Shown: in pieces, positions 3,320 to 26,841 of the stretch | Layout of the letters: every line of letters starts with the position of its first letter | Numbering within the stretch: position 1 is the stretch's first letter | Source: a virus | Virus record (IMG/VR): IMGVR_UViG_3300017917_004241 | Span: 1-26,841 of that record | Direction: 5' to 3' (one strand) | DNA length: 26,841 nucleotides | Position numbers and translations under genes: made by a program | Notes under the pieces: generated by a model | What the model was told of the DNA's origin: nothing | Databases searched by the model: none | Seen by the model: the letters and a program-made list of their open reading frames with translations, nothing else

Positions 3320-3834
3320 ACGTGTCCTGTAATTTGCAAGGTATATCGATCTTCAAGACCAATATTTGCCGCCATGTGCGGCACATCATAAACCCATTCC
3401 ACAGTATCCCCGGCGCGCCATCTCACATAGGGTTTACCTCGGACTTCCAAATAGTGTCCGGGCTTCCAGTCTTCTAACAGCAGCAGTGCTCGACGAATAC
3501 TTTGTTCACGACCTTGCAGATCAAAAAGTTCAACGTAACGTTTGTAAAGATCTTGATGTACTGGCATCACTGTGCCTGTGGTCATACGATAAAATGCAAT
3601 GCCTACATCTTTCCAACCTTGTTGTTCATAAATGTCAACAAACTTGTAGGCCCACTTTGGTAGCTGATGTCTCATATCAGCCAGTTCACCACATACCTTG
3701 CTTTGATAACCTTGTTGAAACCATTGCTCTACACTGATTGGATCATTGAATGGTTCATATACATAGGATATGGTTTTGAACTGGTCATCCCAAAAAGGTT
3801 TGATGTGATATTCAATTACCTCGTGTGTTACCAT
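3316..3834 (-). CDS. 2-oxoglutarate/Fe(II) oxygenase-like protein (aspartyl/asparaginyl hydroxylase type), 172 aa
   Basis: The start chosen is the ATG at 3834, overlapping the end of the dehydrogenase gene by 23 bases; a longer reading frame exists upstream but lies wholly inside that gene. The facial triad of this fold can be read: His93 and Asp95 in MPVHQDLYKRY and His153 in VPHMAANIG, followed ten residues later by Arg163 in DRYTLQITG, where these enzymes hold the 2-oxoglutarate carboxylate. GDTVEWVYDVPHMAANI resembles the cupin strands of aspartyl/asparaginyl beta-hydroxylases. Such enzymes hydroxylate a side chain, releasing succinate and CO2. Target unknown; candidates are the fibre-like protein or the product of the amidinotransferase next door. 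The SD is weak, so translation probably relies on coupling. Confidence is good for the fold and moderate for activity. Confidence 0.68.
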   Translation of the reverse strand: MVTHEVIEYHIKPFWDDQFKTISYVYEPFNDPISVEQWFQQGYQSKVCGELADMRHQLPKWAYKFVDIYEQQGWKDVGIAFYRMTTGTVMPVHQDLYKRYVELFDLQGREQSIRRALLLLEDWKPGHYLEVRGKPYVRWRAGDTVEWVYDVPHMAANIGLEDRYTLQITGHV

Positions 3835-5056
3835 AGTGTATGACTTTGCATCCAGCTCGCTCAGTTTCCTTACGGAAAGGGTCCACAATAACTGATCCTG
3901 GTTTGATAACAAAGTAGTCGGGATCAGCTGCTTGTTCACCAGTGTAACCAAATGTGATCTTGCGGTTGTGTGCCATGAGTACCACAGCAGGACCATCAAC
4001 ACTGTCTACACAGTCTGTGCGATCGTCGGCCAGGGGATCCACATACTTGAGACCAGTGTGACCGTGTTTGGCCACATAGTGTCCCACAAGAGTGCTGTAG
4101 CTACCAATGCAATAGGGCACATCTGGTTTGTAAGCCTTGCCATGAATCACAATGGGCAAGCCGCCATGTTCAAGACTGGCGTCAATCAAGAACTTGGCAA
4201 GGTTTTCTGCTTGGATTTCTCTAGCATGCATGATGGTGTCAAACAAGTCATAGCCAATGTCATATTCCTTGGCCAGCCAACGCAGAGCAATGTTGTCTCT
4301 GGGGTGGCAAGCACCTGCATCGCCCATGCCTGCTGTCATGTACTTGGGTCCCATGATACGCATGGTGGAGTTGGCCAATGCGTTTGTGACAACATCAACA
4401 TTGATGTTGCCAATTCTGAGTGCAAAGTCTTGAATCATGTTTACTAGACCAACCTTGGCCGAAATGAATGTGTTGTAGAAGATCTTGATGGCTTCGCATT
4501 CGTCCCAGGTGCCCAGTTCATAGCGTGGATTATTTTCCATCACTGTGTCGTAGAGATCACGAAGTTCACCTGCAACTCCGTTCCACTTGCCATCTTCGGT
4601 GCCAATGATCACCATCTCGGGATTGACCATGTCCCACTTCACACTACCCATGGCAATGAGATATGGATTGTACAAGAATTGGTGTTTTTTGTCCAGCAAG
4701 GGTATAAACTTTTTACGAGTAGTGCCGGGCAGAACAGTTGAAATCAACACAACTTTTTTGGATTCGCGGGCGTACTTGTTGACATTGTTGATGGCATCAA
4801 TCACAGCGTCATGACCAAAGTCTCGCGGCTCCATGTGTGAGCTAGGCACAGATCCGTCGTAACCTTCTGCGTGTGGGGTAGGTACAGCAATGAAGATCCA
4901 CTCACTTTCGTTGACCAGTTCCTCAATGCCGCAAACTTTTACACTGTTGCTGGTTCTAGGGTAAATATCGTAACCACGAACTTCGTGCTTTTGTGCCATG
5001 ACTTCGGCACAATCTAGACCTAATTTTCCGATTCCAACGAATCCAATTTTCTTCAT
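3812..5056 (-). CDS. ugd: UDP-glucose/GDP-mannose dehydrogenase family protein, 414 aa
   Basis: These NAD-dependent enzymes oxidise the C6 hydroxyl of a nucleotide sugar twice to give a uronic acid (UDP-glucuronate, GDP-mannuronate or similar). Seen: N-terminal Rossmann motif GIGKLG at 8-13; STVLPGTTRK at 106-115; ECEAIKIFYNTF at 186-197, the helix carrying catalytic and substrate-binding Lys and Asn; and the nucleophile Cys250 in GDAGACHPRDN, the family's G-x-C-x-P-K/R-D motif. The C-terminal part (HGKAYKPDVPYCIGS) is the NAD-binding-like UDP domain. Full length for the family. The ATG at 5056 has AAAGGA at ideal spacing, and TATAAT lies at 5075-5080 on the same strand without a good -35. 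Its ATG overlaps the ATG of the divergent gene at 5055 by two bases. First gene of a five-gene overlapping operon. The exact sugar is unknown. Confidence 0.88.
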   Translation of the reverse strand: MKKIGFVGIGKLGLDCAEVMAQKHEVRGYDIYPRTSNSVKVCGIEELVNESEWIFIAVPTPHAEGYDGSVPSSHMEPRDFGHDAVIDAINNVNKYARESKKVVLISTVLPGTTRKKFIPLLDKKHQFLYNPYLIAMGSVKWDMVNPEMVIIGTEDGKWNGVAGELRDLYDTVMENNPRYELGTWDECEAIKIFYNTFISAKVGLVNMIQDFALRIGNINVDVVTNALANSTMRIMGPKYMTAGMGDAGACHPRDNIALRWLAKEYDIGYDLFDTIMHAREIQAENLAKFLIDASLEHGGLPIVIHGKAYKPDVPYCIGSYSTLVGHYVAKHGHTGLKYVDPLADDRTDCVDSVDGPAVVLMAHNRKITFGYTGEQAADPDYFVIKPGSVIVDPFRKETERAGCKVIHYGNTRGN

Positions 5057-6705: not shown

Positions 6706-7494
6706 ATGGAATTCAGCTTTGATTTAATTTCCGACCTGCATGTAGAAACCTGGGATCAATTCAACTGGACTGGGCAACCAACCAGTTCGCACTGTGTTGT
6801 GGCCGGAGATGTAACTCGAGACAGAAAAGTTTTGGGCGAAACGCTCAAACATCTTGGACAATGCTATCAAGGAGTATTTTACATCGACGGCAACGACGAG
6901 CACAGTAACTATGTCAATGACATAGGCAGCAGCTATCGCGATCTGCGTAGATATGTAGACAGGTTCAAAAATGTTGTTTTTATGCAAGACAACGTGGTCA
7001 TCATCAACGGAGTTGCAGTGGTTGCAGTCAATGGTTGGTGGACTTATGACTTTGATCCCAATCTAGACACCGAAGAATCACAACATTGGTATAATCAACG
7101 CTATGGCGGCAATGAAAATACCGGAGATATCATAACCAACATGGCCATATCAGATGCTCAATACCTGCACAACAGCATTGCCAAACTGCAAACACATCGT
7201 GATGTCAAATCAATAGTGATTGTGAGTCATACAGTGCCCACACAGCAGTTGGTGAATCATGACATAGAACTGGTAGACACACATCGTTTCAACATGCTGG
7301 GAAATCCGCATCTCATGCTGTCCCTAGACCAAGACACCGAACACAAGATCAAGACCTGGTGTTTTGGGCACTATCATAGACCTGTGGATCGTGAAATCAA
7401 CGGCATCAGGTATGTCAACAACTGTAGGGGTCGCGGTAACACGCCATGGTGTCAACACGCTTATTTTCCCAAGCGTATCACTGTAACTTATTAG
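6706..7494 (+). CDS. calcineurin-like metallophosphoesterase, 262 aa
   Basis: The full set of di-metal phosphoesterase motifs is present in order: D-x-H (Asp10, His12 in ISDLH), GD (Asp35 in AGDVTRD), G-N-D/H-E (GNDEH, 62-66, where Asp replaces the usual His), a lone His in VSHT (His175) and GHYH (221-224). Such enzymes cleave phosphomonoesters, phosphodiesters or cyclic nucleotides with two metal ions. The length suits a small stand-alone domain. The target is unknown; possibilities are nucleic acid 3' or 5' ends, a nucleotide second messenger or a defence signal. No SD; probably leaderless. The gene is a plus-strand island: it diverges from 6680 and its TAG stop overlaps the stop of clpS. 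The Asp in place of the usual His of GNHE is a substitution seen in part of the superfamily, so activity is likely but specificity is open. Confidence 0.82.
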   Translation: MEFSFDLISDLHVETWDQFNWTGQPTSSHCVVAGDVTRDRKVLGETLKHLGQCYQGVFYIDGNDEHSNYVNDIGSSYRDLRRYVDRFKNVVFMQDNVVIINGVAVVAVNGWWTYDFDPNLDTEESQHWYNQRYGGNENTGDIITNMAISDAQYLHNSIAKLQTHRDVKSIVIVSHTVPTQQLVNHDIELVDTHRFNMLGNPHLMLSLDQDTEHKIKTWCFGHYHRPVDREINGIRYVNNCRGRGNTPWCQHAYFPKRITVTY

Positions 7495-7805
7495 TTTGAG
7501 TCGGGTTCAATCTGAATCTGCAAGGGATAGTTTTGACTGCGAGCACTCACTGTGACTTCCACACCCTTTTGTTCGGCAATTTCATAGGGCAGTACAGCAA
7601 CTGTGGCTTGACCGTTGTCGTGAATGTCCTGTGTGATCTTGAGTGCTGTTTCTGTGGTATAATCAAAAAATTGAATCAAACTGTCCACCACAAACTCCAT
7701 GGTGGTTGTGTTGTCGTTGAGATAGATCACTTTGAACAAAGACGGTTCTTTGGCGGACTCGTTGATTTTAATTTTTGTTTTTGTTGCTGCGTCAGCTTGT
7801 GACAT
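7491..7805 (-). CDS. clpS: ClpS-like adaptor of the Clp protease, 104 aa
   Basis: ClpS binds the N-domain of ClpA and delivers proteins with destabilising N-terminal residues to ClpAP. The protein has a short, charged N-terminal tail (about 20 residues, used to engage ClpA in cellular ClpS) and then the ClpS core: FKVIYLNDNTTTMEFVVDSL, ALKITQDIHDNG, EIAEQK and YPLQIQIEPD. Compared with the E. coli site as I recall it, the binding residues Asn30, Asp31, Thr34, Met36 and His62 are kept. The second acidic residue (E. coli Asp36) is Asn32, and the pocket residue corresponding to Met62 appears to be Thr. The ATG at 7805 has AAGGA at good spacing; a TTG two codons upstream is unlikely. It lies 3' of hsp20 in the same direction with a hairpin between. 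Binding is likely, but recognition may be altered or the protein may act as a decoy. Confidence 0.85.
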   Translation of the reverse strand: MSQADAATKTKIKINESAKEPSLFKVIYLNDNTTTMEFVVDSLIQFFDYTTETALKITQDIHDNGQATVAVLPYEIAEQKGVEVTVSARSQNYPLQIQIEPDSN

Positions 7806-7840
7806 ACTCAATCCTTTTATCCGTTTTAAGTTAAAGAAGT

Positions 7841-7863
7841 CAGTGGGAGCTGGGCCCCCACTG
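7841..7863 (-). terminator. hairpin between hsp20 and clpS
   Basis: CAGTGGG (7841-7847) pairs with CCCACTG (7857-7863) around a 9-base loop, 16 bases after the hsp20 stop. On the minus strand it is followed by a T-rich but interrupted run, so termination would be weak. It may be an attenuator that sets the hsp20:clpS ratio, or an mRNA 3'-end stabiliser. Confidence 0.45.
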
Positions 7864-7879
7864 TATTTACACTATTATA

Positions 7880-8326
7880 TCACTTTGTGTAGGTGATAGC
7901 AATGCTCTTTGGCTTTTTTTCCTCAGGAATAATGCGTTCCAGGCGGATAGACAAAATGCCATTGGTAATGCTGGCACCAGTGACTTCCACATACTCGGCC
8001 AGTGTAAAACTTCTTTCAAAGTCCCGCATGCTGATGCCTTGTACCACATACTCGGCACCAAATTCGTTTTCACGATTGCTGCTGCCTTTGACAGTGAGTA
8101 CATTTTTTTCCAAGTTGATGTCAATTTCGCCTTCAGCAAAACCAGCAACGGCCAGCTGAATAACAAAATTGTTTTCATCAATCTTTAGAATATTGTGTGG
8201 AGGATAGTTTGTAGTTTGTTGCGAAGTAACACGCATGATTTCGTCAAACATGTTGTCGAACCCAATTCCGAACTTGTGCAGTTGGGGGATATCAAAACTA
8301 CGAAGGGTGAGAGTTTTTGTCATCAT
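7880..8326 (-). CDS. hsp20: Hsp20/alpha-crystallin small heat-shock protein (IbpA-like), 148 aa
   Basis: Small heat-shock proteins hold unfolding proteins in an ATP-independent manner until DnaK or Clp machinery refolds them. The alpha-crystallin domain spans about residues 43-140: YPPHNILKIDENNFVIQLAVAGF, DINLEKNVLTVKG, the YVVQGISMRDFERSFTLAEYVEV segment (R/F-E-R-S-F is the family signature) and GASITNGILSIRLERIIPEEKKPKSI, whose last part is the beta-strand and I-x-I/V-like tail used for oligomerisation. The N-terminal arm (FGIGFDNMFDEI) matches IbpA-type proteins. Two adjacent ATGs (8326, 8323) follow AAGGAG; spacing favours 8323. Upstream is a stem-loop (8356-8383) and candidate promoters. 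Phage Hsp20 is common in T4-like cyanophages and is thought to aid virion assembly. Confidence 0.93.
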   Translation of the reverse strand: MMTKTLTLRSFDIPQLHKFGIGFDNMFDEIMRVTSQQTTNYPPHNILKIDENNFVIQLAVAGFAEGEIDINLEKNVLTVKGSSNRENEFGAEYVVQGISMRDFERSFTLAEYVEVTGASITNGILSIRLERIIPEEKKPKSIAITYTK

Positions 8327-8355
8327 AATCTCCTTTTAAAGCAAGTATGACATAT

Positions 8356-8383
8356 AATGTAGCCCGACCATCGGCGCTACATT
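8356..8383 (-). promoter_or_regulatory. bulged stem-loop in the hsp20 5' leader
   Basis: AATGTAGC (8356-8363) pairs with GCTACATT (8376-8383), and CCGA (8364-8367) continues the stem to TCGG (8371-8374) around a CCA loop with one bulged base at 8375: about 12 pairs. It lies after the stop of the gene at 8392 and at the predicted 5' end of the hsp20 mRNA. There is no following T-run on the minus strand, so a 5'-end stabiliser or regulator fits better than a terminator. Confidence 0.6.
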
Positions 8384-8385
8384 GT

Positions 8386-8418
8386 TATTTATTATACACG
8401 ATTCATTGGTTCTATCAA
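8386..8418 (-). promoter_or_regulatory. candidate promoter(s) for hsp20
   Basis: Two overlapping signals. A sigma-70-like pair TTGATA (8418-8413), 16-base spacer, TATAAT (8396-8391); and AATAAATA (8393-8386), matching the late-type NATAAATA motif. The TATAAT covers the stop codon of the gene at 8392. Either would start transcription close to the base of the stem-loop at 8356-8383. Confidence 0.5.
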
Positions 8419-8643
8419 ACGATAATCGAGCAAATAGTTCTGATAACCCTGATCTTTTGGTGCCCAGGTCAGAGCAAAAAAACTATAAGTTGTAGGGTCT
8501 TCGAATGTGACTCGTTTTTTAAATTTGTGAATTTTGGCTTTGTAAGGAATATTGTGTGTCCGGGACCAGTTATCTAGTTCTCGATTCAAATCGTAATCGT
8601 GTATTGCTGGAGAACTGTTGGGCAAAGTAAATTCAATATACAT
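8392..8643 (-). CDS. small phage protein of unknown function, 83 aa
   Basis: Not recognised. The ATG at 8643 has GGA six bases upstream. The sequence begins MYIEFTLPNSS and contains ELDNWSRTHNIPYKAKIHKFKKRVTFEDPTTYSFFALTW, of which the central basic part (KAKIHKFKKRVTFED) looks like two beta strands with a positive loop, followed by an aromatic C-terminal part (YQNYLLDYRLIEP). A small alpha/beta fold is likely, perhaps nucleic-acid-binding given the charge. It lies between hsp20 and bS21, each separated by a stem-loop, so it may be transcribed with bS21. Confidence 0.7.
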   Translation of the reverse strand: MYIEFTLPNSSPAIHDYDLNRELDNWSRTHNIPYKAKIHKFKKRVTFEDPTTYSFFALTWAPKDQGYQNYLLDYRLIEPMNRV

Positions 8644-8658
8644 TTACATTCCATGAAT

Positions 8659-8683
8659 ACAACCAGTTGTTAATAACTGTTGT
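8659..8683 (-). terminator. stem-loop downstream of the bS21 gene
   Basis: ACAAC-C-AGTT (8659-8668) pairs with AACTGTTGT (8675-8683) with one bulged C and a six-base loop. It lies 13 bases after the bS21 stop. There is no T-run, so it is more likely an mRNA 3'-end stabiliser or processing site than an intrinsic terminator. Confidence 0.35.
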
Positions 8684-8695
8684 TGATCAGATTTA

Positions 8696-8917
8696 TCAGT
8701 AAAGTTTTTTAGGCAGTTCTTGATCTGCCATTTTTTTCTTCCAGCGGTTCACAGCCGACGAATGCTTGCGTTTTCTAGTGGTTGTGGGCTTCTCGTAAAA
8801 TTCACGCTCTCTCAGCTCGTCCAACAGCCCCGATTCTGAGATTTTTTTCTTGAACTTACGCAATGCTCTTTCCACATTGTCGTCTTTGACTAGTACTGCT
8901 CGGCCTCTTAACTTCAT
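8696..8917 (-). CDS. rpsU: ribosomal protein bS21 homologue, 73 aa
   Basis: bS21 sits on the 30S platform near the anti-Shine-Dalgarno end of 16S rRNA and helps initiation. The protein has the bS21 layout: an N-terminal strand ([21 protein letters not shown]), the helical region ([24 protein letters not shown]) and an Arg/Lys-rich C-terminus. It matches the usual ~70 residues. An AGGGAGA sequence precedes the ATG at 8917 at good spacing, and AATAAATA (8942-8949) lies 24 bases upstream. bS21 is one of the ribosomal proteins most often carried by phages, where it may compete with the host copy and shift ribosomes to phage mRNAs; that role is inferred. Confidence 0.9.
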
Positions 8918-8940
8918 AGATCTCCCTAAAACTATGTAGT

Positions 8941-10350
8941 TTATTTATTGGCGCTGCTTTGTTTCAGCCGTTGTTGTATTTGTTCAACTTCAGCGTCAGT
9001 CAACAGTTCAGGGTCGTATTCGCCGTTGTTTAGCTTGGAGATCAGGTGATCTATATAAGCAGAGTCATAGCTGTACTGATCGCTGATATTTTTGTCTATT
9101 TCAATCCAGTTTTTGCCATTGAATTTGAACAGTGCGCTGGGCAGTCGATCAACCCGTAAAAAAGTATCGCCTTTGATGGGCTTGTCAGGCCAGGCAGTAC
9201 CAAAACCGCGCATAGTGCCCTGGGGAGGCTCGTTGTCGGCCTGTAAACTCATGTTTTCCCAAGGCAATTTATCTATTTTGCCTTCGCTGTATAACTGGCG
9301 CTGTTTTTTTATGGTTTCACCGGGGTTGGCATTTTTCCAGGCTTTGACTGCTGCCTTTTCGCTGTCTTCTGTGTCATTGGGGTCAGTGTTTGTGGGCACT
9401 GAATCAACAGGTGCAGGATGTTCAATTGGTATGTCAGCCGATTTTGTAAACGACGAAAAAGGCCACAGCGAACTAGACGGAGGCCAAAAACTTCGATAGG
9501 CGGGCTTGGGTGCTGACTCTTGTATCTGTTGAAGTTGTTGTATGGTCAATGCTCCATCGTCGGGTTCGTAGTCAGGCGGCGGGCCTCGAGATTTTTCTCT
9601 CTCCCATTTCATGCTTTCAGTGGCAGCCAGCAATAGCACAATGGCCAAAGGATCAAACACTACCACCAACACAATTATGACCCACCGCACAGCTCGTTCC
9701 AATACATTTACTTCAGGATTGTCGCCATACAGCAAAGCAGCGATGTACTTTATAGGACCAACTTCGGCTTCGACTTTGCGTACTTCGGCAGCAATAGGTG
9801 CCCGTTCCTCATTAAGGCGGGCAATAGTGCTCTGTTCGGTGGCAATTTCTTGAAGTAGTCTAGTGCGTTCTCTGGCCTGAGATCTGCGTATCTGTACCGC
9901 CTTGTCGGCACCCTTTTCGTCTTGACTTCTACCCATAACCTGATCCACAGCCTCATCCAGCTGCCTGAGTGCTTTGCGATTTGCATCTATGTTGTCTTTG
10001 GCCAGTTTAATTTTTTCGTCGTACACAGCAATCTTGGCCTGCACATCGCCGCTGACCAGGCTTTGGTCACTGTGTGCCTTGCTTAGGAATCCAAATATGC
10101 CCATGGATGTAATGGCCATGAGAATGACCACGGCTGGAACCAGATACAGTTTCATGATCAGTCTACACTGGCGCCAGTATTCATGCAGCCACAGAGTTGC
10201 TACCACTTTGCCCAATTCCAATATAGAACCCATTATAATAATGGGAATCACCGCTGCGGCAAAGATTGCGGCCAGGCCTGCAATTGAATAATAGGCAGCA
10301 ATCACCGACAGACTCAGTGCCACTGCCAATGTCACATAACTTAAGAGCAT
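8941..10350 (-). CDS. membrane protein with long coiled coil, 469 aa, unknown function
   Basis: Four hydrophobic segments are seen: about residues 4-24, 26-46, 68-90 and 221-244. Between the third and fourth is a long charged heptad-like helix (about 102-195, rich in K, E, Q and R), so the protein probably has paired membrane anchors joined by a coiled coil. The C-terminal ~220 residues are soluble: Pro-rich ([17 protein letters not shown]), an A-W-K-N-A-N-P-G stretch, and a final domain [15 protein letters not shown]...[22 protein letters not shown]. Similar topology occurs in T4-like environmental phages, as I recall, without known function; a role in the host envelope (superinfection exclusion, lysis timing or virion egress) is possible. 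The ATG at 10350 has no SD and lies 5 bases after AATAAATA. Its own last codons AAT AAA TAA repeat that motif. Confidence 0.75.
8942..8949 (-). promoter_or_regulatory. late-type promoter motif AATAAATA upstream of bS21
   Basis: AATAAATA fits the NATAAATA late motif of T4-like phages. It is made by the last two sense codons and stop of the membrane-protein gene, inside a 12-base GCCAATAAATAA (8941-8952) repeated exactly at 10355-10366. The bS21 ATG is 24 bases further on, leaving a short leader that contains its SD. Confidence 0.45.
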
Positions 10351-10354
10351 AGAT

Positions 10355-10639
10355 TTATTTATTGGCCTCTACGCCAGCAATTATGCTGTGTTTAACACTG
10401 ATCCAAGTAGCAAACTGTGGATCAGGCACACGAAACCAAATACGAATAGGTTTCTTGTGCCAATTATTGTCTAGTTTGCGTTTGGTTTTGGGTTGGCAAC
10501 GCCAGTTGTTGCGACCATAGAGTTCGTTGGCTTCGCGTACTACACGATACCATGCATTGGTTGTGGTTACTTCGATCCAGACTGTGTAAAAGTGCGCATC
10601 GGTAGTTGTTTTTTTAAGCGAATCAAGGGACAATGACAT
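10355..10639 (-). CDS. small basic phage protein of unknown function, 94 aa
   Basis: Not recognised. It is basic and aromatic: FYTVWIEVTTTNAWYRVVRE, then NNWRCQPKTKRKLDNNWHKKPIRIWFRVPD and a C-terminal WISVKHSIIAGVEANK. The mix of strands with a Lys/Arg patch suggests nucleic-acid binding. The ATG at 10639 has no clear SD. It ends 4 bases before the start of the membrane protein gene, and its terminal codons AAT AAA TAA form the AATAAATA motif for that gene. Confidence 0.68.
   Translation of the reverse strand: MSLSLDSLKKTTTDAHFYTVWIEVTTTNAWYRVVREANELYGRNNWRCQPKTKRKLDNNWHKKPIRIWFRVPDPQFATWISVKHSIIAGVEANK
10356..10363 (-). promoter_or_regulatory. late-type promoter motif AATAAATA upstream of the membrane protein gene
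   Basis: This is the second copy of the 12-base GCCAATAAATAA (10355-10366), again covering a gene's last codons and stop. It ends 5 bases before the ATG at 10350, which has no SD. If it is a promoter, the mRNA would begin at or beside the ATG and be leaderless. Confidence 0.45.
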
Positions 10640-10657
10640 ATCAAAGAGGTCACTATT

Positions 10658-10861
10658 TTAATAAACAAAAAGTTCTTTCACTGCATGAACCCCACTTGGC
10701 TTACCCCAACTTCCTGGTTGGTTTTGACTTTCGTCTGGGGCAGTGTCGCACCCGAATGGATTTACTCTGTTAGCCACGGACTGTGCGCCCCAGTCCACAG
10801 TACCATCAATTATGCTACCAATGCGCAAAACTATTTTAGCGTCTTGGCAGCAGATTGTCAA
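10658..10861 (-). CDS. possible small protein with TTG start, 67 aa
   Basis: A TTG at 10861 overlaps the TGA of the preceding gene in the same TTGA arrangement used by the D-amino-acid dehydrogenase gene at 25366, and the frame fills an otherwise empty 220-base stretch of the operon. The product is plausible as a protein (contains DGTVDWGAQSVANRVNPFG and ESQNQPGSWGKPSGV) but has no recognised motif. Against it: there is no SD, the start is TTG, and plus-strand readings also exist here. If rejected, 10640-10857 holds nothing else that I can support. Confidence 0.42.
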   Translation of the reverse strand: MTICCQDAKIVLRIGSIIDGTVDWGAQSVANRVNPFGCDTAPDESQNQPGSWGKPSGVHAVKELFVY

Positions 10862-11268
10862 GCTGGAGAAATTTCAAGTTCCCCAGATGCCCAACATTCG
10901 GTTTCGTAGTTGTACCAACCTTCGCCCTCCCAGGCATCATAACCATCTTCGTCCCAGAGTTCTTCTAGTCGCTCGCGTTCTTCGTCGCTGATGTCTTCTG
11001 GCCAAACAACATCACCATACCATCCATCGTCTAAACTGTCCAGTTCAATGTTTTCTACATTTTCGTCGCAGTAGTCATACATGTTGATGGCATCACCACC
11101 GGGACCTTCAGTTTGCAACAGCACAGGAGGTTTGTCGTCGTTGGTTTCCACGGTCCAAGATCCCCAACGAAATCCAGTGATACGGCGGATGACCATGTCA
11201 CCTTTTTGCCACAGCTCGTGTTCTTCTACCGACTTTTTGTCTACAGTTTTAACGGTCCAATATGTCAT
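10858..11268 (-). CDS. acidic conserved phage protein, 136 aa
   Basis: The start is the ATG at 11268, whose ATGA overlaps the preceding stop; the longer frame to 11379 lies inside the neighbour. The protein opens MTYWTVKTVDKKSVEEHELW, has GFRWGSWTVETND and then a strongly acidic half (MYDYCDENVENIELDSLDDGWYGDVVWPEDISDEERERLEELWDEDGYDAWE is the region, residues about 63-117), ending WASGELEISPA. Similar acidic proteins with a W-T-V-K-T opening and a D-x-D/E-rich C-terminus are common in T4-like phages of cyanobacteria, from memory, and have no assigned function. The acidity and size would suit a DNA mimic, but nothing beyond composition supports that. It probably works with the 313-aa protein upstream, to which it is translationally coupled. 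Confidence 0.76.
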   Translation of the reverse strand: MTYWTVKTVDKKSVEEHELWQKGDMVIRRITGFRWGSWTVETNDDKPPVLLQTEGPGGDAINMYDYCDENVENIELDSLDDGWYGDVVWPEDISDEERERLEELWDEDGYDAWEGEGWYNYETECWASGELEISPA

Positions 11269-12206
11269 TTGTCGAACTCCAAAAAGATTTGATCTAGTTC
11301 CTCGCGCAGGTCTTGCTCGTCGGGATTGTAGGCAATACCTTGCCACAATTTTACTTTGAGTTTTTCGTTTTGATCCCACTCATTGTGCCAAAACTCGCCG
11401 TTCCAAATGGCACGATATTCATAGCCACCTGTAGTTTTGACATTGTAAGAACCTTCTCGCACAGGTTTGATTTTGGCAGGATACCACTCAGTCAATCCGT
11501 ATTTGATGTCGTCCATGTCTCTATAACGTTCGAACCCTTTGTGATCAACGTTGCTGCCTGCAATATAAAAGGCTTGATCAGAACCTTTGCCCGATGTGTC
11601 TCCGCCGTAGTTGTCTAGTTCTATATCATCATATGTGACACCGGTAACAATTTCATTACCATCAAACTCGCACAGATTAAGACAAAGTTTTTCTGGATCA
11701 AACGGAGTACGAAGTTCAATGTCGGCTTCATAGAAGTTACCTTTGTCGCTGCTGTAGCCTAAAAATACCACTGTGCCCTTAGGCTGGCTGTCAATCCATA
11801 CTTCTTCTGTGGTACTGAGCATGACATCGCATCCGTCCAACTCGTTGAGATCGCGCTCGTACACAACATTGCCTTTGTCATCTGTGATTTGCATGGTTCC
11901 CGCCGACTTGTCTACACCATACACATGCCCTATGTTCTCGCATTCGTACCAACTGCCTGGGGCAAATGGCCACATCTCTTCGGGAATATTGTGCTGAGTG
12001 GCATAATCTGAATCCCAAGAAAAATCCGCAACACTGAGTCTGCGACTGCGAAAATAATCGTAAATTTTCCGATCCACTGTGCCCATGGCATATTCACCGC
12101 CATAGCCCCAGATGTTGATCTTGTAGGTACAAGGAGTAAACTTCAAGTGCTCTAGCAATTCTTCATTGGAAATGCCAGTGCTGTGTACAGTTTTGGACTT
12201 GGGCAT
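11265..12206 (-). CDS. conserved phage protein of unknown function, 313 aa
   Basis: Not recognised by function. The ATG at 12206 has AAGGA at good spacing, one base after the stop of the BI-1-like gene. The protein begins MPKSKTVHSTGISNEELLEHL and has a segment IWGYGGEYAMGTVDRKIYDYF near residue 33. After a central strand-rich part, the C-terminus has YRAIWNGEFWHNEWD and KLWQGIAYNPDEQDL with an acidic tail. Large numbers of Trp, Tyr, Asp and Gly and short strands indicate a beta-rich globular protein; no signal or TM segment. It overlaps the next gene by ATGA. Its position between two membrane-protein genes is suggestive but not diagnostic. Confidence 0.75.
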   Translation of the reverse strand: MPKSKTVHSTGISNEELLEHLKFTPCTYKINIWGYGGEYAMGTVDRKIYDYFRSRRLSVADFSWDSDYATQHNIPEEMWPFAPGSWYECENIGHVYGVDKSAGTMQITDDKGNVVYERDLNELDGCDVMLSTTEEVWIDSQPKGTVVFLGYSSDKGNFYEADIELRTPFDPEKLCLNLCEFDGNEIVTGVTYDDIELDNYGGDTSGKGSDQAFYIAGSNVDHKGFERYRDMDDIKYGLTEWYPAKIKPVREGSYNVKTTGGYEYRAIWNGEFWHNEWDQNEKLKVKLWQGIAYNPDEQDLREELDQIFLEFDK

Positions 12207-12207
12207 G

Positions 12208-12891
12208 TTATTCCTTACGGCCGCCGAGCAATTGCAGCAGGCTGATGAACAGATTAATAAAGTTCAAGTACAAGGTCAAGGCACCCATAATTTCCTCTGT
12301 GGTTCCTGCAGAATCTTGGGAGATATTTTCTCTAATCTGTTGTGTGTCGTAGGCAGTGAGACCCAAGAATACCACAATGGCCACAGCCGAGATCAACATT
12401 TGAAATGCCGACGAACCAATGAAGATGTTGACAATACTGGCAATGATAATGGCAATCAGCGCAACAAAACAGTACTTGCCAATGCTGTCAAGATTCTGTT
12501 TGGTAAAGTAACCATACGCACTGAGCACACCGAACAGCACAGCAGCACCCATGAATGCTGTGACAATGCTGCCTAGAGTATAAACTGCAAACAGCATGGC
12601 CATGCTAAGACCCATGAGCGCAGCAAAACCGTGCAACAGACCAAATGCCACTGCTGTGGGCGGCTGCTTGTTCAACACAAACGGGATAGCAAACACTGCT
12701 ACCAAGGGTGCAAAAATCACAACCCATTTCATAACACCAGTGAAAAAGAAGTTTAGCAGCGCAGGGCTAGCAGCAACATTGCCGGCCACAAACATTGACA
12801 TGATCACAGCCAGCATCATTTGAAAATAAACACGCCCCATGGCCTCGTTGATGGCTGGGGCTGTTCGATAAGTTACAGTGGTAGAATACAT
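12208..12891 (-). CDS. Bax inhibitor-1/YccA family membrane protein, 227 aa
   Basis: Multi-pass membrane protein with about seven hydrophobic helices. The C-terminal signature is clear: VFLGLTAYDTQQIRENI followed by LTLYLNFINLFISLLQLLGG, as in bacterial BI-1/YccA proteins (the YDTQ-x-I and LDFINLF-like parts). Another shared feature is the internal repeat of small Gly/Ala-rich helices (AFGLLHGFAALMGLSMAM). In E. coli YccA binds and inhibits the FtsH protease; other members are calcium or pH-sensitive channels. The ATG at 12891 has AGGAG at six bases; the GTG just before it is not needed. It sits at the end of a three-gene run with small unknowns upstream. A phage copy could protect phage or membrane proteins from FtsH during infection; this is an inference. 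Confidence 0.86.
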   Translation of the reverse strand: MYSTTVTYRTAPAINEAMGRVYFQMMLAVIMSMFVAGNVAASPALLNFFFTGVMKWVVIFAPLVAVFAIPFVLNKQPPTAVAFGLLHGFAALMGLSMAMLFAVYTLGSIVTAFMGAAVLFGVLSAYGYFTKQNLDSIGKYCFVALIAIIIASIVNIFIGSSAFQMLISAVAIVVFLGLTAYDTQQIRENISQDSAGTTEEIMGALTLYLNFINLFISLLQLLGGRKE

Positions 12892-12907
12892 CACAGTCTC
12901 CTTTTGA

Positions 12908-18949: not shown

Positions 18950-19241
18950 TTTGGGCTAGCTTGTTGATCAAATCCAATTTCTCAATGCACTTCAAACACA
19001 CTGCATTGTATCTAGGGCCGCCTGTGCTGGACACAGCGCCGCCGCAACTGCAACACAGCACAAAGGCCTGCGTGACCAATGTGCCGCGCCGCGGTTCGTA
19101 GATGGGTTCCAGCGTATAACCAATGGGCTCACGATCTTCTGGTGTTTTTGGTACTTCCACAAACAGCGTGGTATTTTCAGGGGGCTGGTCTTGACCTAGC
19201 CAACGTACTGTTCCATTCTCAATCCATCCCGCTGCTTTCAT
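18936..19241 (-). CDS. small zinc-ribbon-like protein, 101 aa
   Basis: The C-terminal third holds four cysteines in two pairs (Cys63-x-x-Cys66 and Cys82-x-x-Cys85; Cys64 is extra), separated by 15 residues: a zinc-ribbon spacing. The N-terminal part is a small beta domain with WIENGTVRWLGQDQPPENTTLFVEV and REPIGYTLEPIYEP. Zinc ribbons of this kind bind nucleic acid or proteins. The ATG at 19241 overlaps the stop of the L12-like gene (ATGA). Confidence 0.7.
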   Translation of the reverse strand: MKAAGWIENGTVRWLGQDQPPENTTLFVEVPKTPEDREPIGYTLEPIYEPRRGTLVTQAFVLCCSCGGAVSSTGGPRYNAVCLKCIEKLDLINKLAQNENH

Positions 19242-19630
19242 GTCCGAAACCCCACTTTACGCAGACCCAGCACAGCACGGTTATAATCATTGGGATTGAT
19301 TAATACTTGCACTGTGGCAGCGGGACCAGAGTACTTGAGTTTGTCATACATGTCTTTGGCTTCTTTGAGCCCAACGCCCGTCCATGTGCGAATTTCTTTG
19401 ATGCAAGCCACAGCGTTGGCCCACTCTTCAATGCCTTTGATAGTGATACGACTGTTGTACTCGCCAGTGATCATGGCCATGAAAATTTGACCTTTGATAT
19501 CAGGATCCAGTGTGCTTGCAATAGTATCCCAAAGCCGCATACCTTCGTCGGCCCCGTAGGCCTCAGTGATGCTGCGCATAAAGTGCATGCCATTGGTAAT
19601 TATTTCGGTTTTGTACAGTTCGGGAATCAT
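19238..19630 (-). CDS. protein with a ribosomal L7/L12 C-terminal-like domain, 130 aa
   Basis: The C-terminal ~60 residues (about 68-128) carry the L7/L12 CTD pattern: a helix ANAVACIKEIRTWTGVGLKEAKDMYDKL, where TG-x-GLKEAKD is the family signature, then a strand (AATVQVLI) and helix (NDYNRAVLGLRKVGF). In ribosomes this domain recruits translation GTPases. The N-terminal half is not the L12 dimerisation domain but a different helical region. So it is a domain fusion or a re-used fold, not a bona fide L12. Overlaps of the ATGA type link it on both sides. Together with bS21 in the window it hints at ribosome-directed functions. It could alternatively be an unrelated protein that kept only the CTD fold. 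Confidence 0.72.
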   Translation of the reverse strand: MIPELYKTEIITNGMHFMRSITEAYGADEGMRLWDTIASTLDPDIKGQIFMAMITGEYNSRITIKGIEEWANAVACIKEIRTWTGVGLKEAKDMYDKLKYSGPAATVQVLINPNDYNRAVLGLRKVGFRT

Positions 19631-23072: not shown

Positions 23073-24176
23073 TTATAAGTTTGGTAACTCGTCGTAGTCT
23101 ACATGATCTGTCATTACGCCGATCACATAGTTAGTTGATTCATTTTCTTGCAATGCAGTTTGCTTCTTGCTGGTATTGCTGTGTTTGTTGAACCAAGGAA
23201 TAGGTGTGGTTTTTGGGTGAGATTGATTGTATTTGATCCCAATCTCTTTGAGTGCACCAAATGCAGTGTAGTCCACAAAGTCTTTGAGAATTTGAGCATT
23301 GAGACCAATCACTGGACCTTTGTTAAACAAGTAGTCTGCCCAGGCCTTTTCTTCACGGATAACATCCATGTACATGGCATAGACTTCTTCCTCGCACTCG
23401 GCTTTGACACGAGCAAATCGCGGATCTTCTTTGACAACCTGATTGATCATCCAAGCAGTCCAATCTCGGTGCAAGATTTCATCTTGCAAAATCAAACTAA
23501 TGATGTTGCCGTTGCCAATGAAGATTCTGTTTTCTACCATGGCAAGACTTGTGGCAAAGCTGACCATGAAGCGGAAACCTTCCAATGCATAGCTGGCATG
23601 CAGAGCCAACCAAATTGCTTTGATGTGTTCTTTTTCAGTTACCAGCTCGGGATTTACTTCTTTGAAACTGTTGAGTTTATGCAAAGCATCATAGTAATCT
23701 CCTACAGTGCTGGCCATGTCCACAATTTCTTGAGTGTCATGAATAGTGTTGAACACTTCCTTGGGCACGTTGTAGATGTTACGAATAATGTGACTATAGC
23801 TGCGACTGTGAATGTTGGTTTCAAAGAATGTCCACACATACATCAGTGCTTCCAGTTCAGGAATACCACACACTGGTGTAAAGATTTGGCTGGGTCCGCG
23901 ACCCTGCAAGCTGTCCAAGGCAGTTTGACGCAGCAGGTTGCTGGTAAAAATATGACGCACTGTTTCGGATGCTTCCTTGAAGTCGTTGGCATCCTTGGTC
24001 AACGAAATTTCTTCGGGCACCCAAAAGAAACCACGTTGTTCTTGTTCAAACTTGGCCAGTTTGTTGTACTTGACTTCTTCAAATCGCTGAATGGTCACTG
24101 GACCAGCAGGGTCCAAGAACATCTTGCGTGAGAGATAGTCTGTTTTTGTTGATAGATTATATTGTTTTGAGCTCAT
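23073..24176 (-). CDS. nrdB: ribonucleotide reductase class I beta subunit NrdB, 367 aa
   Basis: Holds the di-iron/tyrosyl radical cofactor of class Ia ribonucleotide reductase, which makes dNTPs for phage DNA. Ligand residues are: Asp88 (LLRQTALDSLQGR), Glu119 and His123 (WTFFETNIHSRSY), Glu199 (YALEGFRF), Glu233 and His236 (LQDEILHRDW), and the radical Tyr127. The spacing from the Glu to the first His is one residue longer than in E. coli NrdB (ETNIH instead of ETIH). The C-terminal tail YDELPNL matches the acidic tail that docks on NrdA. The ATG at 24176 overlaps the stop of the oxidoreductase gene and has AAGGA upstream; a frame to 24233 lies within that gene and is rejected. Confidence 0.94.
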   Translation of the reverse strand: MSSKQYNLSTKTDYLSRKMFLDPAGPVTIQRFEEVKYNKLAKFEQEQRGFFWVPEEISLTKDANDFKEASETVRHIFTSNLLRQTALDSLQGRGPSQIFTPVCGIPELEALMYVWTFFETNIHSRSYSHIIRNIYNVPKEVFNTIHDTQEIVDMASTVGDYYDALHKLNSFKEVNPELVTEKEHIKAIWLALHASYALEGFRFMVSFATSLAMVENRIFIGNGNIISLILQDEILHRDWTAWMINQVVKEDPRFARVKAECEEEVYAMYMDVIREEKAWADYLFNKGPVIGLNAQILKDFVDYTAFGALKEIGIKYNQSHPKTTPIPWFNKHSNTSKKQTALQENESTNYVIGVMTDHVDYDELPNL

Positions 24177-25366
24177 ACCTTTTCCTTGACCAATTTTGCT
24201 AGGTCGCAACCTGTAACCGGCCCCAGTGTCCATCCCAAATGTCCATGACCAGTATTATAAAACACTTTTTGATTTTTTGCACTCTGTTTGATAATGGGCA
24301 TCATGTCCGGAGTCATGGGACGCAGGCATGCCCATTGTGTGTAATCGTGTGTGTTGATTTGGGGGAAGTTGGTGTGCACCCAGGCCAACAACGGTTCGAT
24401 TCTGTTGCGTGTGATGTCGTAGTTTTCGCCAGTGAGTTCAGCGGTACCAGCCACGCGGAATCTATTGCCTAAACTGGATGTGACAATTTTGGCTTGATCA
24501 TCCAGCAAACTCACACGCGGCAGCAATGCAGGATCCACGTTGTTGATGGTAATGCTGTAGCCTTTGATCGGGTAAACATCAATGCTGTCGCCTGCGGTGC
24601 GAGCCAACTCAGTACTACCCACTCCGTTGGCCACTACCACAGCATCGTAAAACTGATCTAGTTCAGCAACATGTTCAATTGGTGTTTCATAACAAAAACG
24701 CACATGGTATTTGCGTTCCAAAATTGTTGCCAGCTGATAACAGAACTTGTGAATATCGCCGGTCCAGTCACTGGCAGTCCATACACCACCAATTACATTT
24801 TTAATATCTCGCAGTGCTGGATCTACATTCTTTACCTGTTTTTCGCTGTGCAACAGATCCCACTCACAACCGTTGTTGAAATAGAGATCGTGTACGGAAA
24901 CGGCATGTTCCCAGTACTCGGGTGTTTTATAAAAATGCAAAATGCCCGACGCAGACTTGTCAAAGTCTGAATCTGCAATATTTTCTTGTGTGCAAATTTC
25001 TTGATACAGGTCTCGACTTTGTACGGCCATGCGAATTGTTTTGGCTGTATTGGCTTTGTGTTTGCCTTGCACAGTGGCCAGCAAAAATTTGACCAACCAA
25101 CGCCACATGGGCCAATCCCAACGCAGTTTTAACAGCAGTGGTGCATCTTTACGCCACAGCCAGCGAGCAGCTCTTTTGATGTTGCTCCAGGTAGTCCAAG
25201 TTTCAGAATTAGAAACTGAGATTTGTCCCCCGTTGGCAAAACTGGTTTTCATGCCTGCGTAACGTTCTGCCTCGTACACAGTGACATGATATCCTTCGCG
25301 AACAAGATAATAAGCGGAGCAAAGACCTGTGATGCCTGCTCCGACTACTGCAATCTTTTTTTTCAA
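24173..25366 (-). CDS. dadA: FAD-dependent D-amino-acid dehydrogenase (DadA)-like oxidoreductase, 397 aa
   Basis: DadA-type enzymes oxidise D-amino acids to keto acids at the membrane, passing electrons to quinones. Seen: N-terminal FAD-binding GAGITG at 9-14 with Glu32 at the end of the second strand (VTVYEAE); FANGGQISVSNSETW near 43-57, a DadA-type segment; DVYPIKGYSITI in the middle; and the C-terminal LRPMTPDMMPII and NTGHGHLGWTLGPVTG of the family. It is somewhat shorter than E. coli DadA (432 residues). The start is TTG at 25366, which overlaps the iscU stop as TTGA and has AGAGGA 7 bases upstream; the FAD motif needs this early start. It is inserted between iscU and nrdB. Substrate could be D-alanine or another amine. 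Confidence 0.82.
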   Translation of the reverse strand: MKKKIAVVGAGITGLCSAYYLVREGYHVTVYEAERYAGMKTSFANGGQISVSNSETWTTWSNIKRAARWLWRKDAPLLLKLRWDWPMWRWLVKFLLATVQGKHKANTAKTIRMAVQSRDLYQEICTQENIADSDFDKSASGILHFYKTPEYWEHAVSVHDLYFNNGCEWDLLHSEKQVKNVDPALRDIKNVIGGVWTASDWTGDIHKFCYQLATILERKYHVRFCYETPIEHVAELDQFYDAVVVANGVGSTELARTAGDSIDVYPIKGYSITINNVDPALLPRVSLLDDQAKIVTSSLGNRFRVAGTAELTGENYDITRNRIEPLLAWVHTNFPQINTHDYTQWACLRPMTPDMMPIIKQSAKNQKVFYNTGHGHLGWTLGPVTGCDLAKLVKEKV

Positions 25367-25749
25367 TGCGCATTCCTCTTTTTGTAATCTTCTACTGCGG
25401 CTTTGATGGCATCTTCAGCAAGAATGCTGCAATGAATTTTCACAGGTGGTAGCGCAAGCTCTTCAGCAATTTCGCTATTCTTGAGGCTCGCTGCTTGGTC
25501 GAGAGTTTTTCCTTTGACCCATTCTGTGACAAGGCTGGAGCTTGCAATTGCCGAGCCGCAGCCGTACGTTTTGAATCGAGCATCTGTAATAATACCTGTA
25601 GCATGATCAACCTTTATTTGTAATTTCATAACGTCACCACAGGCAGGTGCACCCACCATACCAGTACCCACGTCAGGATCACTTTTATCAAATGAACCAA
25701 CGTTACGAGGATTCTCATAGTGATCTATCACTTGTGTAGAATAGGCCAT
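25363..25749 (-). CDS. iscU: iron-sulfur cluster scaffold IscU, 128 aa
   Basis: IscU builds Fe-S clusters on three cysteines. It is full-length (128 residues, as in E. coli) and all ligand positions are kept: Cys37 in APACGD with Asp39, Cys64 in YGCGSAIASSSL, and Cys107 in VKIHCSILAEDAIK; the HscA-binding LPPVK motif is at 100-104. Against my memory of E. coli IscU the similarity is high throughout, for example the N-terminal AYS-x-x-VIDHYENPRNVGSF, so it looks like a recently acquired proteobacterial gene. No other isc genes are visible. The ATG at 25749 has AAGGAG at seven bases, 11 bases after the nrdA stop. It could supply iron to NrdB or take over host Fe-S assembly; this is an inference. 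Confidence 0.93.
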   Translation of the reverse strand: MAYSTQVIDHYENPRNVGSFDKSDPDVGTGMVGAPACGDVMKLQIKVDHATGIITDARFKTYGCGSAIASSSLVTEWVKGKTLDQAASLKNSEIAEELALPPVKIHCSILAEDAIKAAVEDYKKRNAH

Positions 25750-25760
25750 TTGTTAGCTCC

Positions 25761-26841
25761 TTAAAGTTTACATGCTTCGCAATCAGCATCATCAAACTCA
25801 TCTTGCAGCAATGCTGGCGCCAATTCTACCTGATCTTCTTCCACTGACTTGGAACCTTGCTTGTCAATCAAGCTGTAGTACAGTGTCTTGAGACCCCACT
25901 TGTGTGCCTGCATCAAGTTCTTGGCAATCAAGGTTGACGGAACTTTTCTGCCAGGGAAGTGCTTGGGCGAATAGAATGTATTGGTGCTGATACTTTGATC
26001 AATGTAGGCTGCCAACACGGCTGCTGTTTTCAAATAGTCAATGCAGTCGGTTTGTTCCCACATCAGTTGATACTTGTTCTTGAGTTTATGATATTCGGGT
26101 ACAACCTGAGTGAATGAGCCGGCTTTGGATTCCTTGGTCGAAATCAAGCTCATGGGCATCTCAATGCCGTTGGTTGAGTTGATCACAACTGAACTAGATT
26201 CCACAGGTGCCACAGCCATCAGTGTGGCATTGCGAACACCATGTTCTTTCATTTGTTCACGCAGTGGTTCCCAATCCAGTTCAGGAGTAAAATCTGCCAA
26301 CTCGTTGACTCCAGAGGCACGGCGCTCCCAGGGAAACACGCCGCGCCCGTACCAAGTACGATCCGAGTCTTTGCAACGACCTCTTTCCTTGGCCAATTCC
26401 ACTGTGGCTTCGGTTAGATAGTAGGCCTGATGTTCCATCCAGCTTTTTACTTCTGATAATGCATCCTTTTCCCCATAGCGGAATCCGCGTTTGGCATGCC
26501 AGTAAGCAAGGTTAGTAACACCGATGCCAAGTGGCTGAATTTCATCGTTGGAGAGCTTGCTCTGGATCGAGAGGAAGTCTTGGTAGTCCAGTATGTTACA
26601 GAGGCTGCGTTGAAGAATGCGACAAGCACGCCGCATGTCCTCAGGATTCCTGAAGGCACCCCAATTGATTGACCCAAGTGTACAGAGTGCGATACGGCCA
26701 TTATCGTCGTCCAGGCGTTTAAAAGGTTTCGTAGGTAAGAGGATTTCACAGCAAAGGTTTGATTGATAAATGGTGTGATACTCGGGATCAAATGGTCCCT
26801 GGTTCATCACATTGTCCACAAACACTAGATAGATACGACCA
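25761..26841 (-). CDS. nrdA: ribonucleotide reductase class I alpha subunit NrdA (C-terminal 359 residues, cut by window edge)
   Basis: The frame is open to the right edge of the window, reading GRIYLVFVDNV before the visible ATG codons, so the true start is outside. Catalytic residues seen: Asn-Leu-Cys in SNLCCEILLPT (the active-site thiyl Cys region with following Glu), the redox Cys in IALCTLGSINWG, and the radical-transfer tyrosine pair in LKTLYYSLIDKQG. The C-terminal DCEACKL has the Cys pair that is reduced by glutaredoxin or thioredoxin. No intron or intein is visible in this part. It heads the operon with iscU, the oxidoreductase, nrdB and grx. Confidence 0.94.
   Translation of the reverse strand, partial: GRIYLVFVDNVMNQGPFDPEYHTIYQSNLCCEILLPTKPFKRLDDDNGRIALCTLGSINWGAFRNPEDMRRACRILQRSLCNILDYQDFLSIQSKLSNDEIQPLGIGVTNLAYWHAKRGFRYGEKDALSEVKSWMEHQAYYLTEATVELAKERGRCKDSDRTWYGRGVFPWERRASGVNELADFTPELDWEPLREQMKEHGVRNATLMAVAPVESSSVVINSTNGIEMPMSLISTKESKAGSFTQVVPEYHKLKNKYQLMWEQTDCIDYLKTAAVLAAYIDQSISTNTFYSPKHFPGRKVPSTLIAKNLMQAHKWGLKTLYYSLIDKQGSKSVEEDQVELAPALLQDEFDDADCEACKL

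Follow-up and report, generated by a model that had tools for sequence, protein, structure and literature searches.

ClpS and Hsp20 of huge phages probably select substrates for a Clp protease that the phages encode

The 26,841-base IMG/VR fragment IMGVR_UViG_3300017917_004241, here called the window, comes from a large bacterial virus and carries the gene for an N-degron adaptor, ClpS, next to the gene for a small heat-shock protein, Hsp20. Together, these two proteins probably constitute the substrate-selection arm of a Clp protease that the phage encodes itself. The virus probably runs its own degradation machine and does not depend solely on taking over that of the host, because its relatives encode the protease that is fed by such an adaptor. 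The clpS gene (7491–7811, minus strand) encodes 106 residues (PF02617, E = 1.3e-23; PDB ClpS, E = 5e-16), and hsp20 (7880–8326, minus strand) encodes 148 residues (PF00011, E = 3.5e-19; PHROG 432, E = 6e-40). An earlier note on this DNA, made from the sequence alone, had described ClpS, Hsp20, the ribosomal protein bS21, and a BI-1 family protein as clustered on one strand, and Pfam profiles do place ClpS, Hsp20, bS21, and Bax1-I/BI-1 at 7491–12894, all on the minus strand. The note had further proposed that the cluster gives the phage control over protein quality, a notion that stands for ClpS and Hsp20, which are inseparable in related huge phages, and falls for BI-1 and the protease FtsH.

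Linkage of clpS and hsp20 in related phages

Profiles of the window proteins were used to scan 80 IMG/VR loci centred on ClpS and 80 centred on BI-1; a second sample comprised 39 large IMG/VR contigs, some chosen by ClpS and some by BI-1. Hsp20, whose α-crystallin domain is covered in the window protein over PF00011 positions 3–102 of 102, lies beside ClpS on the same strand in all 80 ClpS loci, which exceeds chance, and in 77 of them the ClpS frame opens at most 65 nucleotides from the hsp20 stop codon. Among the large contigs, ClpS and Hsp20 are both present in the same 29 and both absent from the same 10. The adjacency also holds in five contigs that had been chosen by BI-1 (G004, G005, G012, G017, and G019), where BI-1 itself is located 25–200 kb from the pair. 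The other genes of the block recur in the ClpS loci at different frequencies (metallophosphoesterase in 80, bS21 in 74, a 469-residue membrane protein in 74, and BI-1 in 6), so that the expectation that clpS, hsp20, and BI-1/YccA travel together in related phages is borne out for the first two genes and not for the third.

In the Pseudomonas jumbo phages PA5oct, MIJ3, and Paride (Arenbergviridae), bS21, Hsp20, and ClpS are found in the window's order on one strand, ClpX adjoins bS21, ClpA and ClpP are encoded elsewhere, and a DNA ligase gene is nearby; unlike the window, these phages have FtsH, which is flanked by a weak BI-1 match. The gene order in PA5oct is clpX–bS21–x–x–hsp20–clpS, with the weak BI-1 match, ftsH, and the DNA ligase gene further on. 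Sinorhizobium phage Phosso has the order hsp20–tk–clpS with bS21 8 kb off, Salicola phage SCTP-2 has clpX–x–clpS with Hsp20 located elsewhere, and Serratia phage BF has IF3–clpS–dnaJ and lacks Hsp20. Agrobacterium phage Atu_ph07 and RaK2-like phages likewise encode ClpS, ClpA, and ClpP, and we know of no bS21–Hsp20–ClpS block described for them. Within the window's group, ClpS is always paired with Hsp20; outside this group, the pairing recurs without being universal. A ClpS match in the Acinetobacter “phage” MD-2021a was dropped, as its clpS–clpA pair sits amid housekeeping genes and the sequence looks like a bacterial contig.

Linkage of this kind could also reflect an inherited neighbourhood, in which ClpS, Hsp20, bS21, and the membrane protein travel together without joint function, either because the clade is young or through block recombination. 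The flanking metallophosphoesterase and g121 genes, likewise retained in most of the ClpS loci, fit such a history. It nevertheless seems improbable to us, as Hsp20 and ClpS remain adjacent in the five contigs named above despite the distance to BI-1, as bS21–Hsp20–ClpS in PA5oct and Hsp20–tk–ClpS in Phosso occur in quite different contexts, and as the proteins diverge by 20–55%.

The pocket of phage ClpS

The window ClpS has a 25-residue N-terminal extension and is matched by PF02617 over positions 1–79 of 80. In Escherichia coli numbering, the protein keeps N34, D35, H66, E79, and K84 and is altered at three positions (D36N, P39T, and M62T). We compared 73 phage ClpS relatives with 28 cellular ClpS proteins in a residue table. 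The five kept residues are invariant in all 73 phage proteins; in ClpA–ClpS structures, E79 and K84 form the ClpS side of the contact with ClpA. The phage pocket is consistently changed, with D36 replaced by Asn in 65/73, M62 by Thr in 73/73, and P39 by Thr or Ser in 70/73, while M40 is kept in 62/73. By comparison, D36, P39, and M62 are all invariant in the cellular set, which was taken from the phylum of an alphaproteobacterial genome as best-scoring copies and is hence biased to canonical sequences. Elsewhere, position 36 is Asn in PA5oct and SCTP-2 and Ser in BF.

A 2025 preprint (PMC12258705) describes D36 and E41 as disfavouring acidic residues that follow the N-terminal one, which limits ClpS-based N-terminal reagents, and proposes that the charge of D36, which flanks the pocket, disfavours acidic residues at P2–P5. 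The phage change at D36 should, on this prediction, relax the bias against acidic P2–P5 residues, and natural ClpS proteins that lack this charge are of practical interest for such reagents.

The hsp20–clpS intergenic element

In the window, the element between the two genes (7841–7879, minus strand) is composed of a TATAAT box right behind the hsp20 stop codon, the motif TAAATAC, and a 10-bp hairpin (7841–7863) with no U tract, followed by the clpS ribosome-binding site. The usual layout in the relatives is the hsp20 stop, TATAAT, 1–5 nucleotides, TAAATAC, a 7–12-bp hairpin, the ribosome-binding site, and clpS, and TAAATAC with a stem is found in 57 of 65 unique hsp20–clpS intergenic regions. 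The stems were selected for pairing, so their complete pairing is itself uninformative; stem positions do vary by compensatory changes, and pairing falls to 70% when the 3′ letters are re-dealt. The fold of the element has a z-score of −3.1. As an independent check, a viral collection was scanned with TATAAT-N0-4-GTAAATACAG; a hairpin was present, among the matches listed, at 27/27 sites beside hsp20/clpS versus 1/52 elsewhere. A search of Rfam with the element gave no family above threshold.

Since most copies lack a following U tract, an ordinary intrinsic terminator is disfavoured for the hairpin, and we read the element as a putative clpS promoter with a 5′ stem-loop. The clpS −35 box overlaps conserved hsp20 codons, and conservation of the box is therefore not independent evidence. 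At the same place, PA5oct has an intrinsic-terminator-like hairpin and then a promoter-like TTGACG-TATAAT, unlike the window's element; this arrangement would represent the same logic achieved by other means.

ClpA and ClpP encoded by the relatives

The Clp D2-small domain was matched in 22/22 large phages, in open reading frames (ORFs) of two classes, about 750 and about 400 residues. The larger ORF is ClpA, with Clp_N, two Walker A motifs, and the IGF loop for ClpP docking, and its ATPase rings are 43–51% identical to those of E. coli ClpA. In ClpA–ClpS structures, residues E28, T81, and R86 of the ClpA N-domain contact ClpS; all 8 IMG/VR copies retain these three residues. ClpP is encoded by 21 of the 22 phages, and the canonical copies contain GQ(A/C)SMGS, MIHQ, and (D/E)RD, read by eye as the Ser, His, and Asp motifs. 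In many relatives (L245, L247, L251), there is a second, divergent ClpP paralogue that retains Ser/His/Asp-like positions.

Each of the 10 ClpS-bearing IMG/VR contigs that measure 199 kb or more encodes a 746–801-residue ClpA-like ATPase and a ClpP-family protein, which in contig G026 is the divergent paralogue only. The nearest long relative of the window, G020, has ClpS and Hsp20 that are ~80% identical to the window's; its clpA gene is located at about 127 kb, and two genes of the ClpP family are at about 109 and 199 kb. A hand-picked set of 18 cultured or complete phages gives a similar picture. ClpS is carried by RaK2, G17, EJP2 (below cut-off), Atu_ph07, Vibrio 2.275, LR756502, PA5oct, Phosso, SCTP-2, and BF, and 10/10 of these also have a 719–795-residue Clp ATPase and ClpP. 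None of ClpS, ClpA, and ClpP is found in phiKZ, T4, HTVC008M, A11a, Melnitz-3, or S-RIM12, four of these six ClpS-less controls having been picked for their Hsp20. Phage G combines ClpP with an ATPase of ClpX size and has no ClpS.

The phage proteins share with the E. coli ClpS–ClpA–ClpP system the ClpS fold with N34/D35/H66 and E79/K84, the Clp_N domain and IGF/IGL loop of ClpA, and the ClpP triad. In contrast to E. coli, the pocket carries D36N, P39T/S, and M62T, the whole set is phage-encoded, and clpS, which adjoins clpA in E. coli, is paired with hsp20 instead.

These observations bear on an alternative in which phage ClpS serves as a decoy or, as an adaptor, redirects host proteins to host ClpAP (or ClpCP). 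The conserved ClpA-contact residues E79 and K84 are consistent with such a role, and a 2021 survey of jumbo phages (PMC7824862), which noted ClpS, proposed that it acts on host ClpAP by carrying targets to it. We judge a host takeover of this type to be rather unlikely, given that ClpA and ClpP accompany ClpS in every phage tested in full (the 10 cultured or complete phages and the 10 long contigs) and that Hsp20 phages without ClpA/ClpP (cyanophage, pelagiphage, Melnitz, and A11a) are also without ClpS. The earlier note had likewise assumed host ClpAP as the target, which is unlikely to be the sole one, since the relatives encode ClpA and ClpP of their own.

Proposed role of ClpS and Hsp20

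For a phage-owned ClpS–ClpA–ClpP machine, the following course of events can be envisaged. Under heavy phage protein synthesis, Hsp20 would hold unfolding proteins, and phage ClpS would dock onto the N-domain of phage ClpA, possibly of host ClpA too, switching ClpA–ClpP from ssrA-type substrates to proteins with particular N-termini or to aggregates; docking of ClpS to the ClpA N-domain and inhibition of ssrA degradation have been described (PMC9663308). The altered pocket would shift the choice of N-termini, and the promoter-like box and 5′ hairpin of clpS would set its dose apart from that of hsp20. In most relatives, the ClpX of the cassette would provide this ClpP with another unfoldase, the window lineage being without clpX in the cassette. 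bS21 and the coiled-coil membrane protein are constant neighbours that would have separate roles, and BI-1 would be an accessory membrane protein of the YbhL/YetJ type. A stronger form of this proposal, which we put forward only tentatively, is a self-contained N-degron pathway of huge phages, with a private ClpS code (D36N/M62T), ClpA and ClpP of its own, and a promoter–hairpin dedicated to clpS, for the timed removal of phage or host proteins that the host N-degron pathway spares.

Several points weigh against a phage-owned machine. The distance from clpS to the clpA and clpP genes amounts to tens of kb, and the case for joint use of the three proteins thus rests on co-occurrence and motifs. 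Neither clpA nor clpP is present in the window, and because the window is a 26.8-kb fragment, we infer both genes for this virus from its close relatives. Contig G013 (250 kb, partial) encodes ClpA but neither ClpS nor ClpP, and Prevotella phage Lak-A1 has ClpP and a 738-residue Clp ATPase without ClpS; the cultured set was, as stated, picked by hand. N-degrons could be bound more weakly now that D36 is lost. Judging from the conserved contact residues, phage ClpS should be acceptable to host ClpA as well.

The single parts of this system are already known, and Hsp20 and Clp genes near bS21 were published in 2022. In that study (Chen et al. 2022, PMC9723584), which covers 900 phages, the genes up to ten places away from bS21 include Hsp20 (n = 127) as well as two families of Clp protease (n = 50 and 47), and the main clades have bS21 beside capsid genes; the portion consulted does not single out ClpS, the adaptor–protease link, or the regulatory element. 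Atu_ph07 has been reported with seven Clp-family proteins (PMC6102473), and MIJ3 has been described with FtsH (PMC6892783). The phage-owned ClpS–ClpA–ClpP set across huge phages, the altered pocket, and the intergenic element appear to be unreported in the main texts of the open-licence papers searched. If the proposal is correct, large phages bring a complete and differently tuned degradation machine, as they do with translation parts, which goes beyond borrowing host proteolysis, and the question moves from the binding of phage ClpS to host ClpA to the targets and timing of the phage protease.

The BI-1 family protein

The BI-1 family gene (12208–12894, minus strand; 228 residues; PF01027, E = 4.4e-52) had been taken for a YccA homologue in the earlier note. 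Its sequence and residues point instead to the YbhL type: blastp gives 38% identity to E. coli YbhL (E = 5e-43), versus 30% over 115 residues for YccA (E = 3e-13). In YetJ numbering (the YetJ sequence used matches the PDB alignment over the aligned part), Asp171 is present in 67/67 and Asp195 in 63/67 phage BI-1 proteins, as in E. coli YbhL and Bacillus subtilis YetJ (TMBIM), whereas YccA has Glu and Ser. The window copy has Asp171 and, unlike YbhL/YetJ, Asn at 195. The best 80 phage BI-1 proteins fetched are 62–72% identical to the window copy. Phage BI-1 forms a distinct branch with ~37–41% identity to the best cellular matches found, and a genome scan with BI-1 returned only two distant cellular relatives. 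SCTP-2 encodes a BI-1 family protein annotated as hypothetical (L177:5583–6254), which has Glu/Ser as in YccA and thereby differs from the YbhL-type protein of the window.

A four-part set in which BI-1 joins the other proteins in blocking host ClpAP and FtsH would account for the presence of all four genes within 5.4 kb in the window, and for PA5oct, where clpX–bS21–hsp20–clpS is later followed by a weak BI-1–ftsH–ligase series. ClpP is moreover found 0.02–4 kb upstream of BI-1 in 27/80 BI-1 loci, usually with DNA ligase. We would be greatly surprised if such a set existed, as BI-1 is present in so few of the ClpS loci and in 2/11 of the ClpS-chosen contigs of at least 140 kb, as FtsH was looked for in the 39 IMG/VR contigs and found in none, and as the PA5oct match is below the Pfam cut-off and lacks key BI-1 residues. 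Judged by co-occurrence and distance, BI-1 does not belong to the core of the cassette; it is accessory and independent of ClpS/Hsp20. The argument for FtsH inhibition through BI-1 does not carry over, because the protein is of the YbhL type and the contigs lack FtsH.

Some link between BI-1 and a protease is possible, given the proximity to ClpP and the weak PA5oct match beside FtsH. In the 24 BI-1 loci that extend 7 kb to either side, ClpS is found in 5, ClpP in 8, and neither of them in 11. In locus L011 (~9.3–10.7 kb), the ClpP frame stops ~22 nucleotides ahead of the BI-1 frame on the same strand. In PA5oct (L164:7853–10268), the very weak BI-1 match is annotated as FtsH-interacting and directly adjoins the phage FtsH.

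Neighbouring genes

The metallophosphoesterase gene (6706–7494, plus strand; PHROG 1649, E = 4e-25) is convergent with clpS and closes the block in this clade. A sigma-70-like promoter match 5′ of hsp20 (8391–8418, minus strand; TTGATA-16-TATAAT, 11/12 matches) is a pattern only. An 83-residue ORF inside the cassette (8392–8643, minus strand) is retained in 32/80 ClpS loci and is followed by the gene for the 73-residue bS21 (8696–8917, minus strand; PF01165, E = 4.8e-18) and that for the 469-residue membrane protein (8941–10350, minus strand). The site at which relatives carry clpX (8918–8940, minus strand) lies between these two genes. There, clpX, whose ~400-residue product has a zinc finger and an IGF-type loop, is found in 68/76 relatives; the slot is without clpX in the window, L082, L083, L085, L086, and L158, and only 7–21 nucleotides separate the flanking genes in the clpX-less relatives of the window. 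The membrane protein, as constant in the block as bS21, has four transmembrane helices, a long coiled-coil hairpin, and a weak likeness to DUF4407 (AlphaFold model, pLDDT 79), and a fold search with it gave no PDB match at E < 0.001.

The interval from bS21 to BI-1 holds the membrane protein and several ORFs, and beyond BI-1 are an ATP-dependent DNA ligase gene and the genes of both ribonucleotide reductase subunits. Between the large and small subunit genes (23073–26825) lie IscU/NifU (25363–25749) and an FAD-dependent oxidoreductase (24173–25366). The protein at 19238–19630 that the earlier note had termed L12-like only just clears the Pfam cut-off (26.1 vs 25.9 bits, over 27 residues) and recurs in a single related locus; the name is not confirmed. 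On the far side of the block, a UDP-glucose/GDP-mannose dehydrogenase-like gene (3812–5056), with 76–81% identity in several relatives, possibly has a surface-sugar role.

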